NCBI GenBank assembly: GCA_023259055.1
Contig: JAHFQZ010000001.1
Location: 62,001 to 126,000, forward strand
DNA length: 64,000 nucleotides
From: Nitrosomonadales bacterium
Lineage (GTDB): Bacteria > Pseudomonadota > Gammaproteobacteria > Burkholderiales > Gallionellaceae
Direction of reading: 5' to 3'
A program made the position numbers and the translations under genes. Shown one piece after another: positions 50,518 through 63,272 of this stretch. Below the pieces are notes generated by a model. That model was not told the DNA's origin. It did no database searches and saw only the letters and a program-made list of their open reading frames with translations. Position 1 is the stretch's first letter; the number at the start of each line of letters is the position of its first letter.

Positions 50518-50591
50518 GGTGGGCACGTTTTTGTGCCCACGCGGAAATAACCTCTGCCGACTGCGTGGGCACAAAAACGTGCCCACCCTAC
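50514..50591. repeat. Long GTAGGG palindrome, copy 1
   Basis: Perfect 29-base inverted repeat: left arm 50514-50542 (begins GTAGGGTGGGCACG), right arm 50563-50591 (ends CGTGCCCACCCTAC), 20-base spacer. Each arm contains its own palindrome GTGGGCAC/GTGCCCAC. A near-identical copy is at 55076-55148. Confidence 0.75.
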
Positions 50592-50620: not shown

Positions 50621-51367
50621 ATGACCATACCCATAGAAATCCGCGAAGCAGCTGGCGTGCGCACGCTGCACTTCGGTTCCGAATGGATACAGGGCGCGAT
50701 GCGCATCGCGCGGCCATGGAACCTGGAGCTGGAGTACACGCGCGAAATGATGGCCTCGCTTTTGCTGCGCGATGCGCCGAGAAGGGTGCTGCTGATCGGC
50801 CTCGGCGCGGCTTCGCTGACGAAGTTCCTGTATCGCCACTATTCCCTTGCGCATCTCACCGTGGTGGAGATTGAACCCGCTGTGGTCGCCGTAGCGCGGC
50901 AGTATTTCAAGCTGCCGGAAGACCCGAAGCGCCTCCATCTGGTGATCGGCGACGGGGCGGAATATATGCTTGGCTGCGACAAGCTGTTCGACCTGATCCT
51001 GGTGGACGGATTCGATGAGAACGCGCGCACCGGCGCGCTGGAGTCGCTGCCGTTTTATCAGGCCTGCCGCGCGCGCCTCAGCGATGACGGGATCGTGGCA
51101 ATCAATCTGCTGACCCGCAACCGCGGCTTCAAGAACAGTTTGATGCGCCTTTGCTCGGCATTCGAAGATCGCGTGCTGGTGTTTCCTTCGTGCGAGAGCG
51201 GCAATGCCATTGCCCTGGCTGCATCAGGCGATCAAATCGAAATATCTTTCGATGAGCTGAAAGAAAGCGCGCTGGCATTGAAAGAAGCAACCGGGTTGAA
51301 TCTGCTACCGACACTGACACGCCTCGCACAAGCCGGAATCTGTTTGAACAACCGGCTGCTGCTGTAG
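50621..51367 (+). CDS. Spermidine synthase-like methyltransferase-fold protein
   Basis: 248 residues from ATG at 50621; an open frame continues upstream only through the palindrome. The Rossmann core shows VLLIGLGAASLTKFLYRHY (motif I), LTVVEIEPAVVAVARQYF (acidic residue binding the cofactor), VIGDGAEYML and LILVDGFDENARTGAL. This is the SpeE-like fold that binds decarboxylated SAM, lacking an N-terminal beta domain of normal size. It may transfer aminopropyl groups or be a diverged relative. Stop TAG is within the palindrome at 51364. It converges on speD. Confidence 0.8.
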   Translation: MTIPIEIREAAGVRTLHFGSEWIQGAMRIARPWNLELEYTREMMASLLLRDAPRRVLLIGLGAASLTKFLYRHYSLAHLTVVEIEPAVVAVARQYFKLPEDPKRLHLVIGDGAEYMLGCDKLFDLILVDGFDENARTGALESLPFYQACRARLSDDGIVAINLLTRNRGFKNSLMRLCSAFEDRVLVFPSCESGNAIALAASGDQIEISFDELKESALALKEATGLNLLPTLTRLAQAGICLNNRLLL

Positions 51368-51414
51368 GGTGCATTTCATGCACCAACATTAATGGTGCAT
51401 GAAATGCACCCTAC
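51364..51414. repeat. GTAGGG palindrome, related short form
   Basis: Perfect 21-base inverted repeat: left arm 51364-51384 (GTAGGGTGCATTTCATGCAC...), right arm 51394-51414, nine-base loop. Same GTAGGG/CCCTAC ends as the copies at 50514 and 55076 but different interior. It lies between the convergent synthase-like and speD stops and could act as a bidirectional terminator, though T-runs are absent. Confidence 0.7.
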
Positions 51415-51417
51415 AGA

Positions 51418-51798
51418 CTACGGTTGATTCAAATCCCCGCGCCGCAGTGTCTGCGTTTTGACCTGCCCCGGTTGGAATGCCGTGTACAGCATATCGTAGA
51501 GTGCTTTCGCTCGCTCGCCGTTATCCTGATTCACATTGCAGACGTAAATATCCAGAGTGACGGCGCGCAATTCCGGCCAGGAGTGCACGGCCAGGTGCGA
51601 TTCCGCCAACACCACCGCCCCTGTCGCACCGCCCGGATGTTCGCTGTCGCCGAACTGATGAAAGGCCTGTGTCACCACAGTCAAGCCTGCATGCTTGCAA
51701 GCCCCTAAACATACAGACTCCAGCCGCGCGACTTGCTGCAGCAATGCTTCGTCGCAAGCGCAGTTGTGGAAATCGGCGATGATCTGGAATCCTTTCAT
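51418..51798 (-). CDS. speD: S-adenosylmethionine decarboxylase proenzyme
   Basis: 126 residues, the size of the short prokaryotic SpeD class. The self-cleavage site lies in VLAESHLAVHSWPEL: cleavage before Ser creates the pyruvoyl group, and His and Glu of the following stretch are conserved. LDIYVCN supplies the catalytic Cys. It makes decarboxylated SAM, the aminopropyl donor for the spermidine-synthase-like proteins on either side. The stop is 4 bases from the palindrome; the next gene upstream on this strand ends 12 bases before it. Confidence 0.93.
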   Translation of the reverse strand: MKGFQIIADFHNCACDEALLQQVARLESVCLGACKHAGLTVVTQAFHQFGDSEHPGGATGAVVLAESHLAVHSWPELRAVTLDIYVCNVNQDNGERAKALYDMLYTAFQPGQVKTQTLRRGDLNQP

Positions 51799-51810
51799 AG
51801 TGTTTGCATT

Positions 51811-53457
51811 CTACGCCAGCAAGCTGGAATATCTGACCGATAGCGCGCGCATCACCCGCTCGGCGGCGAGCACGCCGCGATACTGCGCTTCCTCGAACAC
51901 CGAAAATCCGCTCAGGTCGGCATGAGCCAGATGCAAACGTTGTCCCGGTTGCAGCATACGTTCACGTGCCTTGCCCCAGATGAATCCTACTGTCGGCCTC
52001 ACCATCGCATGGCCGTTGCGCCAGATGTCGATACGTTGCACCAGCTTCGGCAAATCAGGGTGCGGCACGCTCAGTTCGCGCATGATGTCTTCGGCCCAGA
52101 TGCGCCACGTCGTTTGCAGCAAGCGTTGCCGCCCTTTTGCTGGCTGGTCTTCGGACAACGCGCGGTAGTAGGTCAGCACTGTGGGCGCGGGTGTCACGCG
52201 CAAGTGCTGGTGGGTGGCGACCACGTAGCCCAGCGACGATGTGCCGTAGAGCACGTTGTCCCATGACAGCGGCGCGCCGCCAGGTATCACTTTGACCGGC
52301 GATGTTCTGGCGGGAAGCGAGCGCAGCGTGAGGTTGGCGGTCAGCCAGGGCGCGTGGCTCAATTGTCCGATGGCTGCAGAAAGATCAGCCGGGCAATCCG
52401 GCTGGATGCGCGGCAGCGCGAACAACGGCGATGCCCAGATGACGTGATCGGCGCTGATGCGCTCGCTGCGATTTTCGCCTGCATGGTAGACATCCATTTC
52501 CACGCCATTGCTTTTTTCCTCGACATGAAACACCACCGCCCCGGTTTGCAGGCGGCTCCCTGCCCTCTCCGCCAAACGGCGCGTGAGCCAGGCATTGCCC
52601 TCCGGCCAGGTGAGCACGCTGCCGGGTGATGCATTGGCCGCATCGCCGTCGCGGCAGCAGAAATAATGCAGCCCTGCCCATGCGGAGGTCTGCGCCGCAG
52701 TGCTGCCATAATCGTCGCGGCAACTGTAATCGGCATACCAGTGCAAAGGCTGCGAATCCAGTCCTTTTGCGAGCAGAAAATCGCGGAAGGTAATTTGATC
52801 CAGCGCCAACAGGTCGGGATCGCGCGAGCTGAGGGCCATCGGGATCGCGAACGCCTTGCGCCCCTGTGCATCGCGGCGATGTTTGTAGCTTTGCATCAGC
52901 TCATCGAAGCGGTGAAACTGGTCGAGATCGCTACGGCTCGCCCCGGTGTGCGGCATCAATCCTTCCTGCCACAGCCCGTTGATATACAGCCGTTCCTGCG
53001 GCGCATGGCAGAGATGCAACTCGTCATAGCGCGGACGCGGGTCGGACGGATCACCCTGCAGCACACCAAACTCCGCCAGCATCGCGCGCACCGCAACCGA
53101 CTCCTGTGTGGGGATGGGCAGATAGTGCGCGCCCCATGGATAAGCGGTGAACGCATTGCGCCCGGCGCGCGAATTGCCGCCCGGTTCCCGCTCCAGCTCC
53201 AGCACGGTGAAATCATCCACACCGGCGCGCGCCAATGCCCATGCGGCAGACAGCCCGGACACTCCGGCGCCGACGATGGCGATGTGAACGCGGCGCTTGC
53301 TGTCCGGTGCGGGAAATTTCCCATCGCGCAGTTGATGGCCGATACTGCTGGATACGCCCAGCAACTTACCCTCGGGGAATGCCGCAGCCTGCTGCGGCGA
53401 GCAGCCTGACAGACAAGCTGCCGCGCCAATGGTTTTGAGAAAATCGCGGCGGTTCAT
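51811..53457 (-). CDS. Tat-exported FAD-dependent amine oxidase-like protein
   Basis: 548 residues from ATG at 53457. A twin-arginine signal NRRDFLKTIGAAACLSGCSP also contains a possible lipobox (LSGC). The FAD-binding dinucleotide fold is IAIVGAGVSGLSAAWALARAG with ELEREPGGNS. C-terminal HLAHADLSGFSVFEEAQYRG fits the flavin-containing amine oxidase C-terminal motif. Family members oxidise amines or polyamines; a periplasmic polyamine substrate is plausible from neighbours speD and the two synthase-like genes but not proven. It lies 12 bases before speD on the same strand. Confidence 0.85.
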   Translation of the reverse strand: MNRRDFLKTIGAAACLSGCSPQQAAAFPEGKLLGVSSSIGHQLRDGKFPAPDSKRRVHIAIVGAGVSGLSAAWALARAGVDDFTVLELEREPGGNSRAGRNAFTAYPWGAHYLPIPTQESVAVRAMLAEFGVLQGDPSDPRPRYDELHLCHAPQERLYINGLWQEGLMPHTGASRSDLDQFHRFDELMQSYKHRRDAQGRKAFAIPMALSSRDPDLLALDQITFRDFLLAKGLDSQPLHWYADYSCRDDYGSTAAQTSAWAGLHYFCCRDGDAANASPGSVLTWPEGNAWLTRRLAERAGSRLQTGAVVFHVEEKSNGVEMDVYHAGENRSERISADHVIWASPLFALPRIQPDCPADLSAAIGQLSHAPWLTANLTLRSLPARTSPVKVIPGGAPLSWDNVLYGTSSLGYVVATHQHLRVTPAPTVLTYYRALSEDQPAKGRQRLLQTTWRIWAEDIMRELSVPHPDLPKLVQRIDIWRNGHAMVRPTVGFIWGKARERMLQPGQRLHLAHADLSGFSVFEEAQYRGVLAAERVMRALSVRYSSLLA

Positions 53458-53479
53458 CATTACATCCTTAAAAACTTTT

Positions 53480-53551
53480 GTCCGCAGATTGCGCCGGTTT
53501 ACGCAGATTCAACTGGTTTAAATCTGCGTAAAACTGCGCAATTTGCGGATA
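53480..53551. repeat. Imperfect inverted repeat between the oxidase and synthase genes
   Basis: TCCGCAGATTGCGC...TTTACGCAGATT at 53481-53509 pairs with AATCTGCGTAAAACTGCG... at 53522-53550 with a few mismatches. The (A/C)TCTGCGTAA(A) wording is a known dispersed type. It lies in the 108-base gap between the two minus-strand genes. Confidence 0.6.
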
Positions 53552-53568
53552 AGAATGTCGTTTGTTTC

Positions 53569-55065
53569 TCACCGGATCACCTCATGCCACTCTTCCTCGA
53601 ACGTCCGTACCAGCCCTTGATTGTTGAGGCGGTTGACGTCTACCGGAAGCCGCGACATGTCGGGCGGAAAAGAAAACAATGCCGGGGTGGTGGCGACAGA
53701 AAGAAAACGCAGCGGCATCCGATAACTTACCGGAGGCTTATATGGCCGGTGCGAGGCAATAATGTAGCCCCATTCGCCGAACGATGGCACCATCGCATGG
53801 TAGGGCGTTGCTTGCAGCCCGGCTGCTTCTACCGTGGCGACGATGGTCCAGAACGAGCGACGCGCATACATAGGCGAAGTGGATTGGATTACCGCCATGC
53901 CGTCGCTCTTCAAATGACGATCGAGCAGACGGTAAAACGCCTCGGTGTAAAGCTTGCCGACCGAATAATTCGACGGGTCGGGAAAGTCGGCGACGATGAA
54001 ATCATAGCGGCCCGCATCCTGTTCCAGCCACACCAGCGCGTCGGCATTGACGACATGGGCGCGCGGCGAATTGAACGCATTGTCATTGAGTTGCGTGAGC
54101 AGCGGATGGCGCGAGAACAGCTGCGTCATGGCCGGATCGAGATCGACCAGCGTGACTTCCTGCACCGACGGATACTTGAGAATTTCGCGTAACGCCAGCC
54201 CGTCGCCGCCGCCCAACACCAGCACCCGCGCCGGGTGCGGCAGCGTTGCCAGTGCCGGGTGGATCAACGCCTCATGGTAACGGTATTCGTCGCGCGCGCT
54301 GAATTGCAGATTGCCGTTGAGGAACAGACGCAGGTCGTCGCGCCAGCGCGTCACCACAATGCGCTGGTATGGCGTGGACTCGGTATACACGATGCGGTCG
54401 ACATACATGCTCTCTTCCGCCAGCGTGGTGAGCTGTTCCGCTCCGATGAAGCCCGCGCCCAGCAGCAGCGCAGCCAGTCCGCATTGCAAGTACAGCGCTC
54501 GCACCGGCAATTCTGTGCGGAACAAATGTATGGTCCACACCGACACCGCCACATTGAGCAGCCCGAACATGAAGGCGCTGCGCATCAGGCCCAGATGAGG
54601 CGCCAACAGCAACGGGAACATCAGCGAAACGGCCAATGCCCCCAGGTAATCGAAAGTCAGCACCTGCGACACCAGATCGCGGAAACCCACATGCTGGCGC
54701 AGGATGCGCATCACCAGTGGAATCTCCAGTCCCACCAGCACGCCGATCAGCAACACCATCAGATACAAAGCCAGACGGAACGGCCCTTCCACCCAGGCGT
54801 AAAGCAGGAACAGCACCGCCGCCGATACCCCGCCCAGCACCCCCACCAGCAACTCCACCTGCACGAAGCGCAACACCAGCCTGCCCACGACATATTTCGA
54901 CAGCCACGAGCCAATGCCCATCGCGAACAGATACGTGCCAATGACGGTGGAAAACTGCGTGACCGAATCCCCCAGCAGATAACTCGCCAGCGTACCAGCT
55001 ATCAATTCATAGGCGAGCCCGCAGGAGGCGATCAGAAAGACGGTGGCTAGGAGGGCGGGGCGCAT
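53569..55065 (-). CDS. Membrane-fused spermidine synthase-like protein
   Basis: 498 residues. The N-terminal half carries about six to seven membrane helices (about 5-25, 38-58, 70-92, 97-115, 135-160, 165-185, 195-215; e.g. YLMVLLIGVLVGLEIPLVM). The C-terminal half (about 230-450) is a spermidine-synthase domain: YQRIVVTRWRDDLRLFLNGNLQFSARDEYRYHE, VLVLGGGDGLALREILK, TLVDLDPAMTQL, FIVADFPDPSNYSVGKLY. The DEYRYHE and GGGDG words are diagnostic for SpeE. It probably makes polyamine at the inner membrane from SpeD product. Same strand as the oxidase and speD. Confidence 0.9.
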   Translation of the reverse strand: MRPALLATVFLIASCGLAYELIAGTLASYLLGDSVTQFSTVIGTYLFAMGIGSWLSKYVVGRLVLRFVQVELLVGVLGGVSAAVLFLLYAWVEGPFRLALYLMVLLIGVLVGLEIPLVMRILRQHVGFRDLVSQVLTFDYLGALAVSLMFPLLLAPHLGLMRSAFMFGLLNVAVSVWTIHLFRTELPVRALYLQCGLAALLLGAGFIGAEQLTTLAEESMYVDRIVYTESTPYQRIVVTRWRDDLRLFLNGNLQFSARDEYRYHEALIHPALATLPHPARVLVLGGGDGLALREILKYPSVQEVTLVDLDPAMTQLFSRHPLLTQLNDNAFNSPRAHVVNADALVWLEQDAGRYDFIVADFPDPSNYSVGKLYTEAFYRLLDRHLKSDGMAVIQSTSPMYARRSFWTIVATVEAAGLQATPYHAMVPSFGEWGYIIASHRPYKPPVSYRMPLRFLSVATTPALFSFPPDMSRLPVDVNRLNNQGLVRTFEEEWHEVIR

Positions 55066-55075
55066 TAATTTTCAG

Positions 55076-55148
55076 GTAGGGTGGGCAGGTTTTTGTGCCC
55101 ACGCTGTGATGGAATATCCGCGTGGGCACAAAAACGTGCCCACCCTAC
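55076..55148. repeat. Long GTAGGG palindrome, copy 2
   Basis: Left arm 55076-55104 and right arm 55120-55148, 29 bases each with one mismatch (GGGCAGG against CGTGCCC). Nearly identical to copy 1 at 50514-50591. It lies between the membrane synthase start and the DUF350 stop. Confidence 0.75.
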
Positions 55149-55153
55149 GCAAT

Positions 55154-55369
55154 TCAACCATGCACCGCAGCGGCCACGATGATGGCAATGCCCAGGCACA
55201 TGGCGGCGACTACGGTGGCGAGCGCCTGGTTACGCTCTTTGACGATTTCCTGCCAGAGGTTGTAGGGGGTGAGCTTGTCGATCAGGACAAAGGAAATCCA
55301 GAATATCGTTACGCCCATCAGCGAAAATATTAACGCGTTGACGATCCATTCGATTTTAATCATATCCAT
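55154..55369 (-). CDS. DUF350 (YjfL-type) membrane protein
   Basis: 71 residues. A perfect AAGGAGG sits six bases upstream of the ATG. Two membrane helices (about 9-31 and 48-69): IVNALIFSLMGVTIFWISFV, and ALATVVAAMCLGIAIIVAAA. The Asp/Lys/Thr-Pro loop DKLTPYNLWQEIVKERN is the usual DUF350 core. Members are short integral membrane proteins of unknown function, often next to polyamine genes. In E. coli yjfL sits with yjfC, a glutathionylspermidine-synthase-like gene. Confidence 0.88.
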   Translation of the reverse strand: MDMIKIEWIVNALIFSLMGVTIFWISFVLIDKLTPYNLWQEIVKERNQALATVVAAMCLGIAIIVAAAVHG

Positions 55370-55402
55370 GTGAACCTCCTTTTGGTTTTTGCGGCTTATT
55401 AA

Positions 55403-55543
55403 TCATTTGTGATAGGTGCTGTGCTGCCCGCCGGATTGCGGCTTATCCTCGTCGGAGCCGAACATGCTCGCGCCGTTGGCCTGCAGATAGATGAAAAACG
55501 CAAGCAGGGCGGCGTGGCTACCGATGGATATAAATTTAAACAT
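55403..55543 (-). CDS. 46-residue membrane-associated small protein
   Basis: ATG at 55543 opens a 46-codon frame ending at TGA 55403-55405. The N-terminal half (MFKFISIGSHAALLAFFIYL) is one hydrophobic helix; the tail is polar (GSDEDKPQSGGQHSTYHK). It lies 11 bases after the DUF4178 stop and 33 bases before the DUF350 start on the same strand, so it fills a gap in the run. The ribosome site (AGTGAG) is weak. No family recognised, but the operon position and single-helix form support a real gene. Confidence 0.5.
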   Translation of the reverse strand: MFKFISIGSHAALLAFFIYLQANGASMFGSDEDKPQSGGQHSTYHK

Positions 55544-55554
55544 GTGCACTCACT

Positions 55555-57495
55555 TCAGTCATCGCTGTCATCCTTCAACATGGATAGCACCTTCTCTCCA
55601 GTGCTTCCTTGAGGGTATTCACTTCCTGACCAGCGCCTTGCCTCGAAACTGTACCGCCGCAGCCAGTAACTCACGGGGAACAGCAGTAGCAGAATTTCGA
55701 TGGTAATGAAGTTGTGCCAATTGCTCACGTTGCGGCGGATTTGCAGTTGCGTGCTGACGCCCCGCGCCGGTGCCGGAGCAGATTCCGCATCCACGCTCAG
55801 CAGGTAATGTCCTGGCGGCACATTGGCAATTGCGGCGTCGTCGCTGGTGCTGCCTTCCGACCAGTTGCCATCGTCATAGCCGCTATAGTAGCTCACCTCC
55901 CGGCGCACCGCATAAACCTGCCCGGTGTCGCGCGCCACCAGCTCCATGTCGAGGTAGAGCCAGTTGTTATCCAGATTGGTTTTGTTGATGATGTGCAAAT
56001 TGCCGGTGCGGCCGGTAACTTCGAACACCGGCGTGGTGACCGCTTCGCTATTGCCCGCAGGAAAGTTGAGTGCGGTGCTATATACGGTGCGGTTATCCGC
56101 CATCGCGACGCTGATGAGTTGCACCACGAATGCGATCAGCGTGACATACCGGAATGATCGCCACACCAGCTGATAGGCGGCTTCATGCGGCCAAGGCTGA
56201 TTTGGCGCCAAGCCATTCCGTTCAGGCATCGGCCGGGTGATGGCGAAGGCATTCTTCACCACCTCCGGCTCGGTATATTCGCCCACTGTCCAGGTGATTT
56301 CGTTGCCGCTTTTTTCTTCGGACAGCACATAAGGCGGAGCGATGTAATCGTTTACCGTGACCGTCTCGTCGGTGCTGACGCGCCAGTAAAATTCGCCCGC
56401 CACGTAGCTCACTTTGGCCTCATCTTCCTCGTAGTGGCGATACATCTGCCCGCCGTACAGCAAGGCGCGCTGGCCATTCATCGTGGTGCTTTTTGCAGGA
56501 GCGGAATTGGTCGGCCTGGCAAAATTCCAGTGGCCGTCGTATTCGGTGAGCCAGCGGAATCCCTCTGCCGGGTTATGCAGCAGGTATTCGTCCCAGCTGA
56601 ACAGCACACCCTCGCTTTTGCCAGTCCGCCGCAGGAAGCCGATCACGCGGTATGGCACGCCTTTAAACTTGCCTTCTGTTCCGAGCGGGATGAACGGGTC
56701 AATTAGTTGCTGAGCGGCGAACTTCCTCAGTATTTTTACGTTCTCGTTGTCGTTGTCTATCAGGGAATGGCAGCTGCCGCAGGTGACCCGGAGAATGCCG
56801 GGAGCGTGTAGTTCGATGGTGGCAGCGCAGGACGGACACTGGATTGCATTGAGTTTTATTTTTCCAACTCCGGCCTGTGATGCATCGCGCAAATTGGCGA
56901 AATGCAGGTCGGCGAAGTCGACCGATGCGCCGAGAAAGAGCAGCGGGATTTCCTCGCTGTAATCGATGGAAGCAAAATTCCTGGCGGAGCGCAGGTCGGC
57001 AGAAGGCGCGTCGTAACCAGCTCCAACCTTGAAAAGCAATTCGCCTGCTCCGGCGATGCACTTGCCGTTCTCGATATCGGTGACGGTGAATGGCTCGCCG
57101 TTCAGGGTCACCTCCATGCCGGCTTTCAAGTCGGCCAACGCGGGCACCGGCTCCGGCACTTTGGAAAGGAATGTGACGGTATAGTCGCCGTTGGCATCGC
57201 TGAGCCAGCCGCTGCGCTGGTTGTCGAACAGCAGATGCCACTCGTTCCATATGCCATCTGGGTATTGCAACTGAATGCGCCCGATGACGGCGAAATGCAT
57301 GCCCCGGTATTTGCCTTCGGTGCCGATCTGGACGAGGGAAGCATCCTCCAGCAGCTCCGCCATTTTCCCGATATTTTCGACATCGGCGCCGCGGCGTATC
57401 AACGTGCTGCGGCAATACTCGCACACTGCCATGATTGAGGCCGTAGTGCGGAACGTAACTTGCGCGCCGCAGGTTGGACAGTTGGCCGTCTTCAT
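55555..57495 (-). CDS. DUF4178 protein with two zinc ribbons and membrane segments
   Basis: 646 residues. Two zinc-ribbon-like units: CPTC with CEYC (Cys near 7, 10, 25, 28) and CPSC with CGSC (about 221-240). Each is followed by a DUF4178-type beta domain: IGTEGKYRGMHFAVIGRIQL, and LGTEGKFKGVPYRVIGFLRR. Two membrane segments lie at about 465-480 (VTLIAFVVQLISVAMA) and 610-625 (FITIEILLLLFPVSYWL), with a beta-rich extracytoplasmic region between. The repeat halves point to internal duplication. The gene lies between the SPFH and the small-protein genes. Confidence 0.87.
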   Translation of the reverse strand: MKTANCPTCGAQVTFRTTASIMAVCEYCRSTLIRRGADVENIGKMAELLEDASLVQIGTEGKYRGMHFAVIGRIQLQYPDGIWNEWHLLFDNQRSGWLSDANGDYTVTFLSKVPEPVPALADLKAGMEVTLNGEPFTVTDIENGKCIAGAGELLFKVGAGYDAPSADLRSARNFASIDYSEEIPLLFLGASVDFADLHFANLRDASQAGVGKIKLNAIQCPSCAATIELHAPGILRVTCGSCHSLIDNDNENVKILRKFAAQQLIDPFIPLGTEGKFKGVPYRVIGFLRRTGKSEGVLFSWDEYLLHNPAEGFRWLTEYDGHWNFARPTNSAPAKSTTMNGQRALLYGGQMYRHYEEDEAKVSYVAGEFYWRVSTDETVTVNDYIAPPYVLSEEKSGNEITWTVGEYTEPEVVKNAFAITRPMPERNGLAPNQPWPHEAAYQLVWRSFRYVTLIAFVVQLISVAMADNRTVYSTALNFPAGNSEAVTTPVFEVTGRTGNLHIINKTNLDNNWLYLDMELVARDTGQVYAVRREVSYYSGYDDGNWSEGSTSDDAAIANVPPGHYLLSVDAESAPAPARGVSTQLQIRRNVSNWHNFITIEILLLLFPVSYWLRRYSFEARRWSGSEYPQGSTGEKVLSMLKDDSDD

Positions 57496-57520
57496 GAAAA
57501 GCGCTGGCTGCCTGGTTGGA

Positions 57521-58537
57521 TCAGGTGAGCTTCTTCAGCAGTTCGGCTTTTTTGGACTCGAACTCCTCGCTGCTGATGATTCCCTTGGTCATCAGTCCAT
57601 GCAATTTCTCCAGCGTTGCCATGACTTCATCGCTGGAAACCGCAGCGGGTTGTGGCGACGAACCTTGTGCAGGATTCAGCGATTGCGCCATCGCCTGCGC
57701 CACCTGCTGCCCTACGCCGAAACCAACGCCGACACCCGCACCCAACCCGGCAAGCCCGCCCTCGTTCTGCGCGGCCAGCGGGATGGATTTGGCAACCTGG
57801 TACTGCGTGAAGCCCTGCATGCCGCCCATCATGTTTACGCCGATGCGGTCATCCAGAGCCTTTTGCAATTCTTCAGGCAGCGAGACGTTCTGCACCATCA
57901 GCGTTTCCAGACCCAGGCCGAAATTGGTGAACACCGGCTCCAGCTTCCCCTTGAGGGCGCGGCCAAATTCTTCCTGGTTGCCCGCCATGTCGATGAAGGG
58001 CACGCCGGACTCGCCGAAAATATCGCTGATTGCAGAGACGATGGTGTTGCGCAACTGTCCTTCCAGTTCTTCGGTGGTGTAGCTTTCGCGCGTGCCGGAA
58101 ACCTGCTGATAGAACAACTTGGGGTCGGTGATGCGGTAGGAATAAATACCGAAGGCACGCAGGCGCACAATACCGAAATCCTTGTCGCGTATCGTAATGG
58201 GATTGGGTGTGCCCCACTTGCGATCGAGCTGGATGCGCGTGCTGAAGAAGTAAACATCCGACTTGAACGGTGACTCGAACAGCTTGTCCCAGTTTTTCAG
58301 GTAGGTGAGCACCGGCAGGGTTTGCGTCGTCAGCTTGAATCTGCCCGGACCGAACACATCGGCAATCTTGCCTTCGTCCACGAACATCGCCTTCTGGGTG
58401 TCGCGCACGGTAAGCTGCGCGCCGTTCTGGATTTCAAAATCCCGCATCGGAAAACGGTATGCCAGCACGCCATCCGTTTCTTCAGTCCAGTGAATGATGT
58501 CTATGAACTGTTTCTTTACGAAATCCATCAATGCCAT
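57521..58537 (-). CDS. SPFH-domain protein with C-terminal SHOCT (YdjI/virion-core-like)
   Basis: 338 residues. The N-terminal SPFH-like region (about 20-240): FEIQNGAQLTVRDTQKAMFV, VFFSTRIQLDRKWGTPNPI, and FNELGLGLE-type region FTNFGLGLETLMVQNVSLPEE. A glycine-rich linker (about 265-285, GGLAGLGAGVGVGFG) precedes a SHOCT motif (about 305-338: LEKLHGLMTKGIISSEEFES). SPFH proteins form membrane-bound oligomeric rafts; this group is also called virion core protein-like YdjI. It heads the same-strand run SPFH-DUF4178-small protein-DUF350. Confidence 0.88.
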   Translation of the reverse strand: MALMDFVKKQFIDIIHWTEETDGVLAYRFPMRDFEIQNGAQLTVRDTQKAMFVDEGKIADVFGPGRFKLTTQTLPVLTYLKNWDKLFESPFKSDVYFFSTRIQLDRKWGTPNPITIRDKDFGIVRLRAFGIYSYRITDPKLFYQQVSGTRESYTTEELEGQLRNTIVSAISDIFGESGVPFIDMAGNQEEFGRALKGKLEPVFTNFGLGLETLMVQNVSLPEELQKALDDRIGVNMMGGMQGFTQYQVAKSIPLAAQNEGGLAGLGAGVGVGFGVGQQVAQAMAQSLNPAQGSSPQPAAVSSDEVMATLEKLHGLMTKGIISSEEFESKKAELLKKLT

Positions 58538-59331: not shown

Positions 59332-62139
59332 TCAGAATTGTGAACTCGGTACCATTGGTTCAGGGGGCATGAACACCGGTAGCGCACCGGGATGGTCAAG
59401 AGAGTAGCGCAAATATATCAACGCCTTGTTAGGCGTGTAGTAATAGGAACGATCTATAGAGAACAATCCTCCGGCAAATAATTTGGGTTCGAATTGATAT
59501 TCCCACGCGGCCATTACTGAGAAGCCCTTGCCTTGGCTTGGCCCGCCCGTGTAAATGGGCGTGGTGAAATTGACAGGCACAAGAGCAGTTGCCTGAGCCT
59601 GCATTGCGCTGTCCGTGGGGAAGAACTGCGCATCCTTCATTTGCGTATTGGATCCTGAAGCGGAGCCGCGCAGCATGTATGAGAAACGTGGATAGCGTTC
59701 CGTGTAAGTGATGGGCAAAGACAGCGAGCGGTAATTGCGCGGGCTGTAATACCCGCCGTGTCCGAAAGTATATTCACCGGCATTCTCTGCAAAATGCCAA
59801 TACATTCCCGTCAAACCAACGACAAATTTGCGGTTCTCTTCGTTGATCACGCGCCACTGTTCCCCGGCCATGATTTGAATCCGCTGGTTGGATTGCACAT
59901 TGCGTCCGGTCAGGCTGTGCCAGCCAAACGATGACCAGAAACCAAAAGTTTCGCCTTTGTCGAGACTGAGTCCCAGATTCCCCCCCGTCGCTACCACCCC
60001 GCCCCAGACTCTGCCCGTATTGGGATCTTTCGTGCCGGCAAAGGAAAGCAGGCTGGCAGTGATTGGCCGGCGCGACGCCTCAAGCGAATAGCCGAATTCT
60101 CCAAGATCGCCTTTTTGGCGTATCGCGCCGACGGTATTGGATACCGGGAAATTGAGCGGTGTGAATCCAATATCTGCGCTGAGATCACCACGCTGGTAGC
60201 CTGTCGTGAATGACATGCCTTGATCTGCCTGCTGCAACATGGTTGATGCGCAAGTTGGCTGGCAGAGCAGCAAGCTGCCAAAACGATCATTGGTTGCAGC
60301 AACTGTTCCTGAACTCAATTTGACCAGGTCGGTTCTGAAAAACACTTCATCGTTCTTGTGCCAGGGCGCTTTGTATTCCAGCGGGATTTCCAGGGAATTA
60401 AACTGTGACATTCCCGGCGTGCCTTTGCGGCTGAGTGATTCTATGGCGGAAGACAGCCAATCCGAGCGGCGATCTATCAGCGCTGCCAATTTCTTTTCTT
60501 TCCAGTCACGCTGAATTTTATCGGGGCTGCCGAATTCATCAATGCCGACATTCTCATAGGCAAGCGCGGGCTTTTGTTGACTGCCGTTCTGCGTTGAAAC
60601 GGCATCGCGAGTAGCGCCTGGGCGAACATAAGGCTCGGCTACAACCAGTTTCTTCAGGTAATCGATTTCCTGATCCAATTGCCCTTCTCGTTCCGCCATT
60701 TTCCATGCGTCGTAAAGCGCATACGAAGCTTCCGGATGCGCAGCGATCAGGGAATCAATCAGTTTTTTTGCCCGTTCGTATTCCCCGAGATTGAAGTACA
60801 TGTTGCTGATTGGCAAACCGACATAAACCTCATTCGCAGAACTGTCGGCTGCCCATTCATCCAGTTGTTGCAGCGCTTTGGCTCGCTCACCGGATGCGGT
60901 CAACATCTCAATCAGGCCTCTTCTGGCCTCCATGTTCAGCTTGTTTGATTTTAAAATGCGGGTATAGATATCTATTGCAGCTTGCCACTGGCGTTCGGCA
61001 CGATATGCATGCGCATCAGCGAGCAACAGATTTACCTGATTCGGTTTTTGTTTCAAGAATGGCGCGAGGGCCTGGTGAGCCTGGGCAGTATTGCCTGCCG
61101 ATGTTTGCTTCTCCGCCATGCGAATGGCTGCAGCTTCCTGCAGCTCTGCCAATGACGCTTTTTCAGCAGGCGACAGGTTTTGAATCCCTGAAATGGTTTC
61201 AAGCTCTTCGCGCAGCTCCTGTTCGGAATCTATCATCGCAAGAAAGGCAGCGTAGCGCAGGTGCCAGTTTGCGGAAGGCGGCGTATGGCCGGCCTTGACT
61301 CTGTCAAACAGCGCGCGGCTATGCTTGATTTCGCCAATTTCCGCCCATACAAGCGCAACCGCAAGGGTAAAATCCTCATTGCCTGAGCTGGTGGCCTCCG
61401 CATCAGACAGCATTTTAATGGCGTCATCTTTTCGGCCGGATTGTATCAGCGACTTTGCGTCCGGCCCCAGATTGCTTATCGTCAAACGCTGTTGCAGCAT
61501 CAACATGTCATTACTGCGTTTCAAAACCTCAATCCGGTTCAGGGTCTTCCGCGCATTACTGCTGTCCCCCAGGTCAGACTGAAATTGTGCCAAGGCATAA
61601 AGAGAGTCTGGATCATTCGGATGCCTGGCTACCAATCCGTTTAACAGCAGCAGTCCATTTGCGGAATCATCCCGAAGTGCATATTGCTTTGCCAATTTGA
61701 AATGCAGCCACGGATCATCGGGATCCAGTTGCACGGCTTGTTCAAGAAATTTAATCGCATTGTCATTCTGTCCCTTCGCCAGCCTCAAATCCGCCTGATC
61801 CTGCAGCATTGATGCCTCGATGCGCTTGAGCGAAGCGCCCATCGCACTGCGCTGCGCCGGGGTTAATTGCGCAATCGTTAACTGGACTTTTGACGTCATG
61901 CCCTGCTGGCGATAAAAGGCGATGAGTCCATTCAGGGCGCTGACATCAAGCGGGTCGATAGAAAGCGCTTTACGATAGCTGTTTTCCGCCTCTTTGAATT
62001 GTCCGCGATCCGCCTGTTCACGCGCCAGAGCGGTCAGTGCACCGGGTGTTTTATTTTGACCAGCTTCCTCTGAAAGGGAATGGGTTGAAATTGAGCCAAG
62101 CGAAAGGATCGCCGCAATAATGACTAACTTTTTGTACAT
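59332..62139 (-). CDS. bcsC: Cellulose synthase outer-membrane subunit BcsC
   Basis: 935 residues from ATG at 62139, with GAGG nine bases upstream; a GTG six bases earlier overlaps the ribosome site. A signal peptide (about 1-25) is followed by many TPR helices (about 35-520; LTALAREQADRGQFKEAENSYRK is a typical first unit) and a C-terminal barrel domain (about 580-935) with alternating strands ending ALIYLRYSLDHPGALPVFMP. It exports cellulose through the outer membrane; TPRs bridge the periplasm. Shorter than E. coli BcsC (about 1157), with fewer TPR repeats. It overlaps bcsZ by 16 bases. Confidence 0.92.
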   Translation of the reverse strand: MYKKLVIIAAILSLGSISTHSLSEEAGQNKTPGALTALAREQADRGQFKEAENSYRKALSIDPLDVSALNGLIAFYRQQGMTSKVQLTIAQLTPAQRSAMGASLKRIEASMLQDQADLRLAKGQNDNAIKFLEQAVQLDPDDPWLHFKLAKQYALRDDSANGLLLLNGLVARHPNDPDSLYALAQFQSDLGDSSNARKTLNRIEVLKRSNDMLMLQQRLTISNLGPDAKSLIQSGRKDDAIKMLSDAEATSSGNEDFTLAVALVWAEIGEIKHSRALFDRVKAGHTPPSANWHLRYAAFLAMIDSEQELREELETISGIQNLSPAEKASLAELQEAAAIRMAEKQTSAGNTAQAHQALAPFLKQKPNQVNLLLADAHAYRAERQWQAAIDIYTRILKSNKLNMEARRGLIEMLTASGERAKALQQLDEWAADSSANEVYVGLPISNMYFNLGEYERAKKLIDSLIAAHPEASYALYDAWKMAEREGQLDQEIDYLKKLVVAEPYVRPGATRDAVSTQNGSQQKPALAYENVGIDEFGSPDKIQRDWKEKKLAALIDRRSDWLSSAIESLSRKGTPGMSQFNSLEIPLEYKAPWHKNDEVFFRTDLVKLSSGTVAATNDRFGSLLLCQPTCASTMLQQADQGMSFTTGYQRGDLSADIGFTPLNFPVSNTVGAIRQKGDLGEFGYSLEASRRPITASLLSFAGTKDPNTGRVWGGVVATGGNLGLSLDKGETFGFWSSFGWHSLTGRNVQSNQRIQIMAGEQWRVINEENRKFVVGLTGMYWHFAENAGEYTFGHGGYYSPRNYRSLSLPITYTERYPRFSYMLRGSASGSNTQMKDAQFFPTDSAMQAQATALVPVNFTTPIYTGGPSQGKGFSVMAAWEYQFEPKLFAGGLFSIDRSYYYTPNKALIYLRYSLDHPGALPVFMPPEPMVPSSQF

Positions 62140-63272
62140 TTCCACCTCGGTTTGAAAGCGCCATCACGTTCAAATTTGTAAAGCCCTTCGAGCCAGCCCA
62201 GGCCAAATAGAGTCAGCACTTGATCGTAGTAGTTATCGGTTCGATCAAGCGGAGAAAGCGCAACGATCCGTTGACTCTGTTGATGCAGCGCTACACTCTG
62301 TTTTGATGCTTTCAGAAAAGGAAGCAGTGCGGATGAAAATCCGGCTGAGGCACTCTCCTTGACAACTCCGCTGGGAGTATTAATTTCACGCAACAGTGTG
62401 CCGTTACTGGCCACGTGTTGTCCCATCGGGGCTAATTTTTTCAGCAGTATATGAGATGCAGGATCCCGGCTGTCCAGCATCCCTGCCCACAAATAGACAC
62501 GGATTGCATTAAAGCCGCTCCCTGACGCTGCTGAATTGTCTGACAGAAATCCTTTCCCTGCCTGATAATCCACCCACTCTGGAACAAAGCCGAGCGGTAC
62601 GGAGCGAACGATAATTTCGAGCGAAGTCTCAGCAATTTTTTTCCACTCAGAGTCAGGATAAATTACCGCGAAGCGGCGCATGATCTGTATCGGCAGGTAG
62701 CTGGGATTAAACCGCCAAGTGGTTTCATCGGCGTGAAAACCTTTCGGTCCGGGTAGAAGTACCAGCCCCAATCCCGGTACTTCCGCCGTTTCCTCCCTCA
62801 GTATTCGCGCAGCCAGAAGCTCGGCAAGAGCGGAATATTTTGGGGTTTTCCACAACCGCCCGGCTTCATTCAGCGCATATGCGGTCCAAAGGTCGGCATC
62901 GGTTGCCGCGTTGCTATCTATCACGCCCCAGCTGCCATCGGCGCGTTTTCCCCAATTCCACGCTGGAAGCTGGCTGGTCAGGTCGCCGCCAGCCAGATTG
63001 GCTTCAACCCACTGCAGGATCAGGTCAAATGAGGCGCGATCATTCGCGATTAACGAAAACATCAGCCCGTAGGCTTGCCCTTCAGAGGTGGTTACATGTT
63101 GCGGAAGTGAGCGGTCGACTACTCGCCCTTCATCGCTGACAAACTTGCTGCGAAAGCTGTTCCATGCCGGCCAGATTTCGCATTTGCTTTCGCTCGCATC
63201 AACGGGGAGCGAACAGGAAAGCAATCCCACGAAAACAAGAAAGATTATTTTGATGGTGGTGCGATGTGACAA
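62124..63272 (-). CDS. bcsZ: Periplasmic endoglucanase BcsZ (GH8)
   Basis: 382 residues. The signal peptide ends near LPVDASES (about 27; LLSC makes a lipobox possible). GH8 catalytic pattern: HVTTSEGQAYGLMFSLIAND with the acid Glu, and NAATDADLWTAYALNEAGRLW with Asp. DNYYDQVLTLFGLGWLEGLY closes the (alpha/alpha)6 barrel. It trims nascent cellulose in the periplasm. The 3' end overlaps the bcsC start, so the two are translationally linked. Confidence 0.93.
   Translation of the reverse strand: MSHRTTIKIIFLVFVGLLSCSLPVDASESKCEIWPAWNSFRSKFVSDEGRVVDRSLPQHVTTSEGQAYGLMFSLIANDRASFDLILQWVEANLAGGDLTSQLPAWNWGKRADGSWGVIDSNAATDADLWTAYALNEAGRLWKTPKYSALAELLAARILREETAEVPGLGLVLLPGPKGFHADETTWRFNPSYLPIQIMRRFAVIYPDSEWKKIAETSLEIIVRSVPLGFVPEWVDYQAGKGFLSDNSAASGSGFNAIRVYLWAGMLDSRDPASHILLKKLAPMGQHVASNGTLLREINTPSGVVKESASAGFSSALLPFLKASKQSVALHQQSQRIVALSPLDRTDNYYDQVLTLFGLGWLEGLYKFERDGAFKPRWKCTKS

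Follow-up and report, generated by a model that had tools for sequence, protein, structure and literature searches.

A lysine-ended membrane partner of a transmembrane spermidine-synthase-like protein as a candidate aminopropyl acceptor

Introduction

On what do the membrane-anchored, spermidine-synthase-like enzymes of bacteria act? Their substrate is an open question in the published literature, and the available excerpts of a recent article, citing Li 2019, report on experimental grounds that bacterial fusions of membrane helices with an aminopropyltransferase (APT) are not involved in spermidine or spermine biosynthesis (PMC12803844, 2025). The question arises in a Nitrosomonadales bacterium of the Gallionellaceae (GenBank assembly GCA_023259055.1, 2.6 Mb in 9 contigs), in a stretch of 64,000 nucleotides (contig JAHFQZ010000001.1, positions 62,001 to 126,000) that is here called the window. 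A run of seven genes on its minus strand encodes, in order, an SPFH-SHOCT protein, a DUF4178 protein, a protein of 46 amino acids (aa), a DUF350 protein, a transmembrane spermidine-synthase-like protein (TM-SpdSyn), an FAD amine oxidase and the S-adenosylmethionine (AdoMet) decarboxylase SpeD.

An earlier sequence-only reading of this region had joined these families into one neighbourhood and overlooked the 46-aa gene, which points to a probable acceptor. The neighbourhood itself is known and conserved; the new element is a lysine-ended partner of TM-SpdSyn. With confidence that is evenly divided, we propose that the C-terminal lysine of this dedicated membrane partner is the aminopropyl acceptor of TM-SpdSyn. 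With a dedicated partner whose C-terminal lysine is conserved, the substrate question comes down to a simple assay.

Results

A 46-residue gene with a lysine end

The protein encoded between DUF4178 and DUF350 has a single hydrophobic helix and a polar tail, which ends in STYHK, and matches no Pfam or NCBIfam family at an E-value of 0.1. Compared with two relatives, the gene has synonymous codon fractions of 0.57 against a neutral 0.17 and 0.39 against a neutral 0.13, values reached in 0 and 1 of 2000 simulations, respectively, which shows that it is under purifying selection.

A profile of TM-SpdSyn matched 587 stretches, of which the best 80, all loci from named genomes, were retained; within these, the nearest named relatives of the window are Gallionella and Gallionellaceae records. 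DUF4178 was present in 67 of the 80 loci, and every one of the 67 also held a lysine-ended membrane partner. In 20 of them the lysine is carried by the DUF4178 protein itself, behind a transmembrane segment and a tail of the form ...GGSYGGYSSGGGHK or similar ("fused" being defined by the HK end); this fused, ...GGHK-ended type is that of Comamonadaceae and their relatives. The other 47 loci encode a separate small lysine-ended membrane protein, which lies upstream of TM-SpdSyn in 35 (in a tally that required the final lysine) and was found in 12 of 12 loci of a Massilia type, where the genes form two divergent groups, one of SPFH, DUF4178 and SpeD and the other of TM-SpdSyn and the amine oxidase. 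A supposed absence of the tail from Massilia-type loci was rejected, the tail being found directly after DUF4178, on the other strand.

The separate proteins were also sought by a slot rule that disregards the final residue and takes a small hydrophobic open reading frame (ORF) starting near the DUF4178 stop codon. This blind rule led to a lysine end in 43 of the 47 loci, as the top candidate in 38 and behind an N-terminally extended DUF350 frame in five. The four misses were one spurious pick and three proteins under the hydropathy limit, and all four loci hold a lysine-ended protein on inspection. The background frequency of a C-terminal lysine was 21 in 399 unrelated long frames of the same loci (5.3%), these frames being unverified ORFs of 250 aa or more. 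Greedy ORF clustering was too crude for such GC-rich loci.

In a set of 35 small tails (omitting L048, whose called start lies far upstream, and including L112), the penultimate residue is His in 19 and Gly in 16, the positions upstream are variable, and 13 tails contain no lysine other than the final one. Certain tails in other loci end in RVK or RIK, so only the final lysine is constant among the tails. A pattern search for GGHK ends gave six matches, three of them genuine tails. The possibility that the tail is a partner of the short DUF350 alone was set aside, since tails also occur with a long DUF350 (L114, L115 and the Massilia type).

The DUF4178 proteins that have a separate tail mostly end in Asp/Glu-rich sequence, and the fused ones end in HK and have, by eye, one hydrophobic segment fewer; the acidic and HK ends thus seem to be on opposite faces of the membrane.

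Further loci and a census of genomes

Thirteen of the loci lacked DUF4178 nearby, and seven of these genomes were searched whole (the six outside the whole-genome tail search being L035, L036, L038, L041, L042 and L044). DUF4178 was found elsewhere in all seven, with the tail next to it in six and fused to it in one, each ending in HK; the six separate tails were, in every case, the first hydrophobic frame after DUF4178, a choice blind to the last residue.

A second set comprised 40 loci from a survey of 398 genomes of the window's phylum, L020 and five plasmid loci; L020 and L112-L115 had been examined before the rule existed, and the 40 survey loci had been listed previously, in a listing that required the final lysine. 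DUF4178 was matched in 29 loci of this set, six of them of the fused, HK-ended kind; in 20 of the 23 non-fused loci the blind rule gave lysine. On inspection, the remaining three are accounted for by a second candidate (L167), the DUF4178-like match itself (L170) and a lipoprotein (L115). Across the 398-genome sample a lysine-ended partner was found in 43 of the 44 genomes with TM-SpdSyn, the exception, G343, being a contig of 7.2 kb (L163).

Conservation of the neighbourhood

The 80 loci, as the best of the 587 matches, are mainly proteobacterial and also include records titled Acidobacteria, Bryobacterales, Gemmatimonas, Roseisolibacter, Vampirovibrio and Fibrobacteres. SPFH, DUF4178, DUF350, amine oxidase and SpeD recur beside TM-SpdSyn, frequently in the order of the window; on a Novosphingobium plasmid (L112) the gene order is identical, and the record annotates the 48-aa tail gene as a hypothetical protein. 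In the survey, TM-SpdSyn occurs in 44 of the 398 genomes (E 1e-60) and DUF4178 in 25, all 25 of which have TM-SpdSyn (Fisher p 4.8e-28, with shared ancestry uncorrected). The linkage is far above chance and strongly conserved outside this strain.

The neighbourhood described by the sequence-only reading is therefore clearly borne out in both the 80 loci and the 398 genomes, and the families that it named (SpeD, spermidine-synthase-like proteins, amine oxidase, DUF350, DUF4178 and SPFH-SHOCT) are all present as placed, with a SHOCT match marginally below the Pfam cut-off (26.9 against 27 bits) and a TAT_signal match under its own. One of its members has to be given up: in the 80 loci, the tblastn matches of the convergent PRK04457-like gene fall only within TM-SpdSyn itself, which leaves the gene without a homologue of its own nearby, and it is a bystander outside the system.

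Other genes were observed in some of these neighbourhoods. In two loci of gammaproteobacterial type, the run that holds TM-SpdSyn and DUF4178 also includes TelA, for toxic anion resistance (L020:6833-8017 and L115:9527-10633, by record annotation and Pfam). PspA lies downstream of TM-SpdSyn in L023:11733-12440 (Pfam), as in the published PspA-CesT group, with a similar set in L182 by eye.

Lipoprotein partners, DUF350 and the docking alternative

A lipoprotein of more than 300 aa, with a Ser/Arg/Lys-rich end in ...RGK or ...GGK, serves as the partner in many other loci. A profile of the lipoprotein family matched 16 of the 398 genomes, 16 of 16 with TM-SpdSyn and 0 of 16 with a DUF4178 match. 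No tail lies near TM-SpdSyn in L181 and L182, and in both the lipoprotein is found elsewhere in the genome, ending in GGK (2/2). Of 17 lipoproteins compared, ten were seeds picked with a lysine end, and the seven non-seeds are also lysine-ended. Lysine-ended partners of TM-SpdSyn are, then, of at least four protein types (a small transmembrane protein, a DUF4178 fusion and two lipoprotein families), and these different families have just the final lysine in common.

A composition of enzyme and tail only was rejected for the lipoprotein loci: the gene between lipoprotein and TM-SpdSyn was identified by Pfam as a long DUF350 in all eight loci scanned, a form that a profile built from the short DUF350 had missed. 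A core of TM-SpdSyn, DUF350 and the lysine-ended protein is thus constant, with DUF4178, SPFH and the amine oxidase as lineage-dependent extras.

The presence of the long DUF350 lowers the probability of modification and raises that of the main rival, docking of the tail to DUF350. Here the C-terminal lysine would stay unmodified and serve as a signal for docking or recognition, chiefly by DUF350 but alternatively by SPFH or the acidic DUF4178 end, and TM-SpdSyn would act on another acceptor, for instance an aminophospholipid or an exported small amine. DUF350 is as constant with the tail as the enzyme is, lying between lipoprotein and TM-SpdSyn in each of the eight scanned loci; where the tail is a separate protein, the DUF4178 protein mostly has an Asp/Glu end. 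Set against this, DUF350 also stands beside DUF1190 proteins ending in Gly-Gly where the enzyme is a ligase, namely in E. coli yjfL-yjfM-yjfC and in L194, whose next gene is GSP_synth. All four DUF1190 proteins considered end in Gly-Gly (YjfM, YgiB and two relatives from a family search, the L193 locus being too short to show a ligase), and E. coli yjfC and ygiC are annotated as peptide-spermidine ligases, of which the DUF1190 tails are presumably the substrates. DUF1190 had no match at E 0.001 in the source genome (G000). It is thus the enzyme, not DUF350, that the end residue follows, and this is our main ground for preferring modification to docking; the ends also match the enzymes, since ligation requires a carboxylate and aminopropyl transfer an amine. 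We consider docking rather unlikely.

The enzyme and its predicted topology

TM-SpdSyn scores above the curated cut-off of NF002956 (PRK03612 family; whole-protein score of 673 bits against 472) and falls below the SpeE equivalog cut-off (TIGR00417; 139.8 against 249.55 bits). Its AlphaFold2 (AF2) model (pLDDT 89) has seven long N-terminal helices followed by a spermidine-synthase fold, and the closest solved folds are 1uir/3anx, the triamine/agmatine aminopropyltransferase of T. thermophilus (TMt 0.73-0.75). D360, D363, Q234, DE..YHE and most of GGGDG are invariant in alignments of 5, 31 and 24 rows, and are also aligned to the solved enzymes; PSFGEWG is the sequence of the segment close to the acceptor pocket. 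We take these residues to have the roles in catalysis and in binding of decarboxylated AdoMet that are generally assigned to them in the family.

The retained motifs, like the NCBI family name polyamine aminopropyltransferase, would suit an ordinary membrane-bound spermidine synthase or exporter within a neighbourhood of general envelope-stress housekeeping. The polyamine genes of the genome also speak for this view in one respect, as the genome was found to encode four proteins with a spermidine-synthase domain (TM-SpdSyn, an 805-aa membrane type and two that are PRK04457-like), all of which score under the canonical SpeE cut-off. Both PRK04457-like proteins are below their own cut-off, as is a match to nspC, and the operon SpeD is the only SpeD detected (PF02675, one match). 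The ordinary-synthase explanation is nevertheless improbable, given the published negative for bacterial fusions in the excerpts of PMC12803844, and it leaves unexplained both the lysine ends and the presence of TM-SpdSyn in 25 of 25 DUF4178 genomes. Elsewhere in the genome, the second PRK04457-like protein and the 805-aa membrane protein lie at G000:C6:550144 and G000:C6:561482, both under NCBIfam cut-offs.

The N-terminus of TM-SpdSyn is predicted to lie inside, and its enzyme domain outside, the inner membrane, because positive charge follows helices 2, 4 and 6 and little follows helices 1 and 3 (mean K+R of 2.7/3.5/1.9 in loops 2/4/6 and 0.0/0.9 in loops 1/3, with helix limits placed by hand and loop 5 empty as drawn). 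In the 35 small tails the charge before the helix is more positive than that after it in 24, less positive in five and equal in six, and the lipoprotein partners carry export signals by eye. Taken with the RR/LSGC start of the oxidase, this distribution of charge and export signals suggests that the parts of the reaction would lie on one side of the membrane.

The amine oxidase

The window oxidase begins with MMNRRDFLKT, followed by a lipobox-like LSGC, and its TAT_signal match is below the Pfam cut-off (18.1 against 22.7 bits); the RR is invariant in its aligned homologues, partly through selection, as these were taken from 60 genes with starts set to give RR. Its fold is that of monoamine oxidase (MAO), putrescine oxidase and spermidine dehydrogenase (Z 28.6, rmsd 3.3 over 424 residues to 2yg7), in tied rows from which the substrate cannot be named, and by sequence its matches to solved structures are weak ones to the FAD domain only.

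A fold near putrescine oxidase and MAO, together with the Tat-type start, would also allow the oxidase to act on the C-terminal lysine in the manner of a lysyl oxidase, giving an aldehyde for cross-linking, with TM-SpdSyn making a free polyamine partner. We find this very improbable: lysine tails are retained in many TM-SpdSyn loci with no amine-oxidase match in the fetched stretch (the rest of these genomes not having been searched), and the excerpts of PMC12803844 report the membrane-APT fusions as uninvolved in spermidine or spermine synthesis. The exported oxidase is more probably an accessory of the system.

Gene content of the window

The window proteins were assigned by Pfam and NCBIfam family scans (Table 1). 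The DUF4178 protein comprises two units, each a Cys-pair ribbon plus DUF4178, and has an acidic C-terminus and, by eye, two hydrophobic segments. Neither a CesT-PspA dyad nor an ATP-grasp ligase was found by Pfam among the eight window proteins scanned.

Table 1. Features of the operon and the adjoining convergent gene, in window coordinates.
Feature	Position	Strand	Basis
SPFH/Band-7 protein, C-terminal SHOCT-like end, 338 aa, first of run	57521..58537	-	Pfam Band_7_1 264 bits
DUF4178 protein, 646 aa	55555..57495	-	Pfam DUF4178 112.8 bits, 2 stretches
Small membrane protein, 46 aa, ends ...STYHK, candidate acceptor	55403..55543	-	Conserved slot, K end, coding test
Short DUF350, 71 aa, about half of the DUF350 model	55154..55369	-	Pfam 52.9 bits, model 6-66 of 133
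TM-SpdSyn, 498 aa, seven predicted transmembrane helices and aminopropyltransferase domain	53569..55065	-	NF002956 673 bits
FAD amine oxidase, 549 aa, Tat-type RR start, lipobox-like LSGC	51811..53460	-	Amino_oxidase 57.8 bits
SpeD, S-adenosylmethionine decarboxylase, 126 aa	51418..51798	-	TIGR03330 82.4 bits, cut-off 75.65
PRK04457-like spermidine-synthase homologue, bystander	50621..51367	+	230 bits, below cut-off 304

Paired inverted palindromes resembling REP/BIME elements (GTGGGCAC...GTGCCCAC, one copy with an altered base) lie at 50519-50540 and 50565-50586, just upstream of 50621, and at 55081-55102 and 55122-55143, between DUF350 and TM-SpdSyn; the latter pair might split or tune the operon transcript. 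Upstream of the operon, at 59332-63272, are two minus-strand genes that look cellulose-synthesis-like by eye (a TPR protein and a glycosidase).

Discussion

A proposed modification of the C-terminal lysine

We postulate that SpeD, to judge from its family, produces decarboxylated AdoMet, from which TM-SpdSyn would move an aminopropyl group onto the side-chain amine of the partner's C-terminal lysine. The partner would be the 46-aa ...HK protein here, the ...GGHK-ended DUF4178 protein in Comamonadaceae and relatives, or the ...RGK/GGK lipoprotein in other lineages, and the product would be N6-(3-aminopropyl)lysine, that is, a spermidine-like group on the end of a protein. The enzyme domain, the tails and the exported oxidase would all lie on the outer face of the inner membrane. 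Perhaps the amine oxidase trims or oxidises the modified end in those lineages that have it, and perhaps DUF350, common to the TM-SpdSyn and peptide-spermidine ligase systems, reads the polyamine-like end, with DUF4178 and SPFH as a scaffold. The identity of the acceptor we infer from co-occurrence and chemistry; the membrane side, the roles of the oxidase and of DUF350, and the physiological use are likewise inferred. The sequence-only reading had suggested membrane-localised polyamine chemistry, perhaps on lipid or protein; modification of a protein fits the lysine ends, and a lipid, which may yet be the acceptor, would leave them unexplained.

It is tempting to speculate further that two unrelated chemistries, an outer-face aminopropyltransferase and the Gly-Gly ligases, converge on membrane proteins with a C-terminal polyamine, which would be read by DUF350 and, in some lineages, removed by an eraser resembling polyamine oxidase (PAO). 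This wider scheme is tentative, and we regard it as somewhat doubtful.

Several points weigh against lysine modification on the outer face. An enzyme domain there needs decarboxylated AdoMet outside the cytoplasm, which is unexplained, with no carrier shown, and the sister systems fit poorly with an outer-face reaction, as their ligases depend on ATP and presumably work in the cytoplasm. The lipoprotein tails carry many other lysines. DUF350 is constant with enzyme and tail in the eight lipoprotein loci scanned, so the tail could serve DUF350, and the C-terminal lysine could be a docking or sorting signal. A tail was not found on the 7.2 kb contig L163, nor near TM-SpdSyn in L023 and L028 of an earlier 185-genome sample, the rest of whose genomes was not searched. 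Part of the census was filtered on the final lysine, the slot tests alone being blind to the last residue, and no modified peptide is reported in the literature found.

If the proposal is true, it would add a bacterial protein modification and would unite the tail proteins, DUF350 and DUF4178 in one biochemical purpose. An aminopropyl group shifts the mass by +57.058 Da, 36 mDa from carbamidomethylation, which could have masked the modification in proteomics. Searches of open-licence literature revealed no report of a C-terminal lysine, or of lysine aminopropylation, for these systems.

Comparison with known systems

Clusters of SpeD, a membrane-SpdSyn fusion and DUF350 were reportedly described by Li et al. 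in 2019 (Biochem J), and the fusion is said there not to be a spermidine synthase, with its acceptor unknown. The window operon has these three elements in common with those clusters; added here are a candidate acceptor and a predicted membrane side.

The recurring theme of polyamine and membrane-remodelling proteins, to which the sequence-only reading drew attention, is real and is not new. The presence of DUF350, DUF4178, and band-7 or PspA beside polyamine genes is set out as a theme in the available excerpts of Ravi et al. 2024 (PMC11237479), and the role suggested there for such systems is the monitoring of polyamines or of the aminopropylation of other substrates. A 7TM-spermidine-synthase fusion, DUF350 and DUF4178 are named there in one group, the second, and this set is matched by the window operon. 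Band-7 with SHOCT, AdoMet decarboxylase and polyamine oxidase form a variant of another group (PMC11237479). The window has a band-7 protein, an AdoMet decarboxylase and an amine oxidase, with SHOCT at 26.9 against 27 bits where the excerpts give band-7 with a C-terminal 2TM and SHOCT; that variant is, however, grouped with an ATP-grasp ligase, which the window operon lacks (PMC11237479). The same excerpts name the lipoprotein Ctha_1186, and a C-terminal lysine and a small tail protein are not mentioned in them (PMC11237479).

The YgiC/YjfC systems of E. coli resemble that of the window in two ways: DUF350 is a neighbour (yjf), and the partner, a membrane protein or lipoprotein, has a tail rich in Gly/Ser. 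Their enzymes are reportedly the peptide-spermidine ligases treated by Pederick et al. in 2023. They differ in using an ATP-grasp ligase and DUF1190 tails ending in Gly-Gly, whereas the window has an aminopropyltransferase and a tail ending in lysine (...STYHK). By analogy, both systems would yield a protein with a C-terminal polyamine.

A polyamine-derived chain on a lysine side chain is also found in hypusine on eIF5A and in the lysine-polyamine groups of diatom silaffins, and in deoxyhypusine an aminobutyl group comes from spermidine. The group proposed here would differ from these in being an aminopropyl group from decarboxylated AdoMet, placed at a C-terminal lysine, in bacteria.

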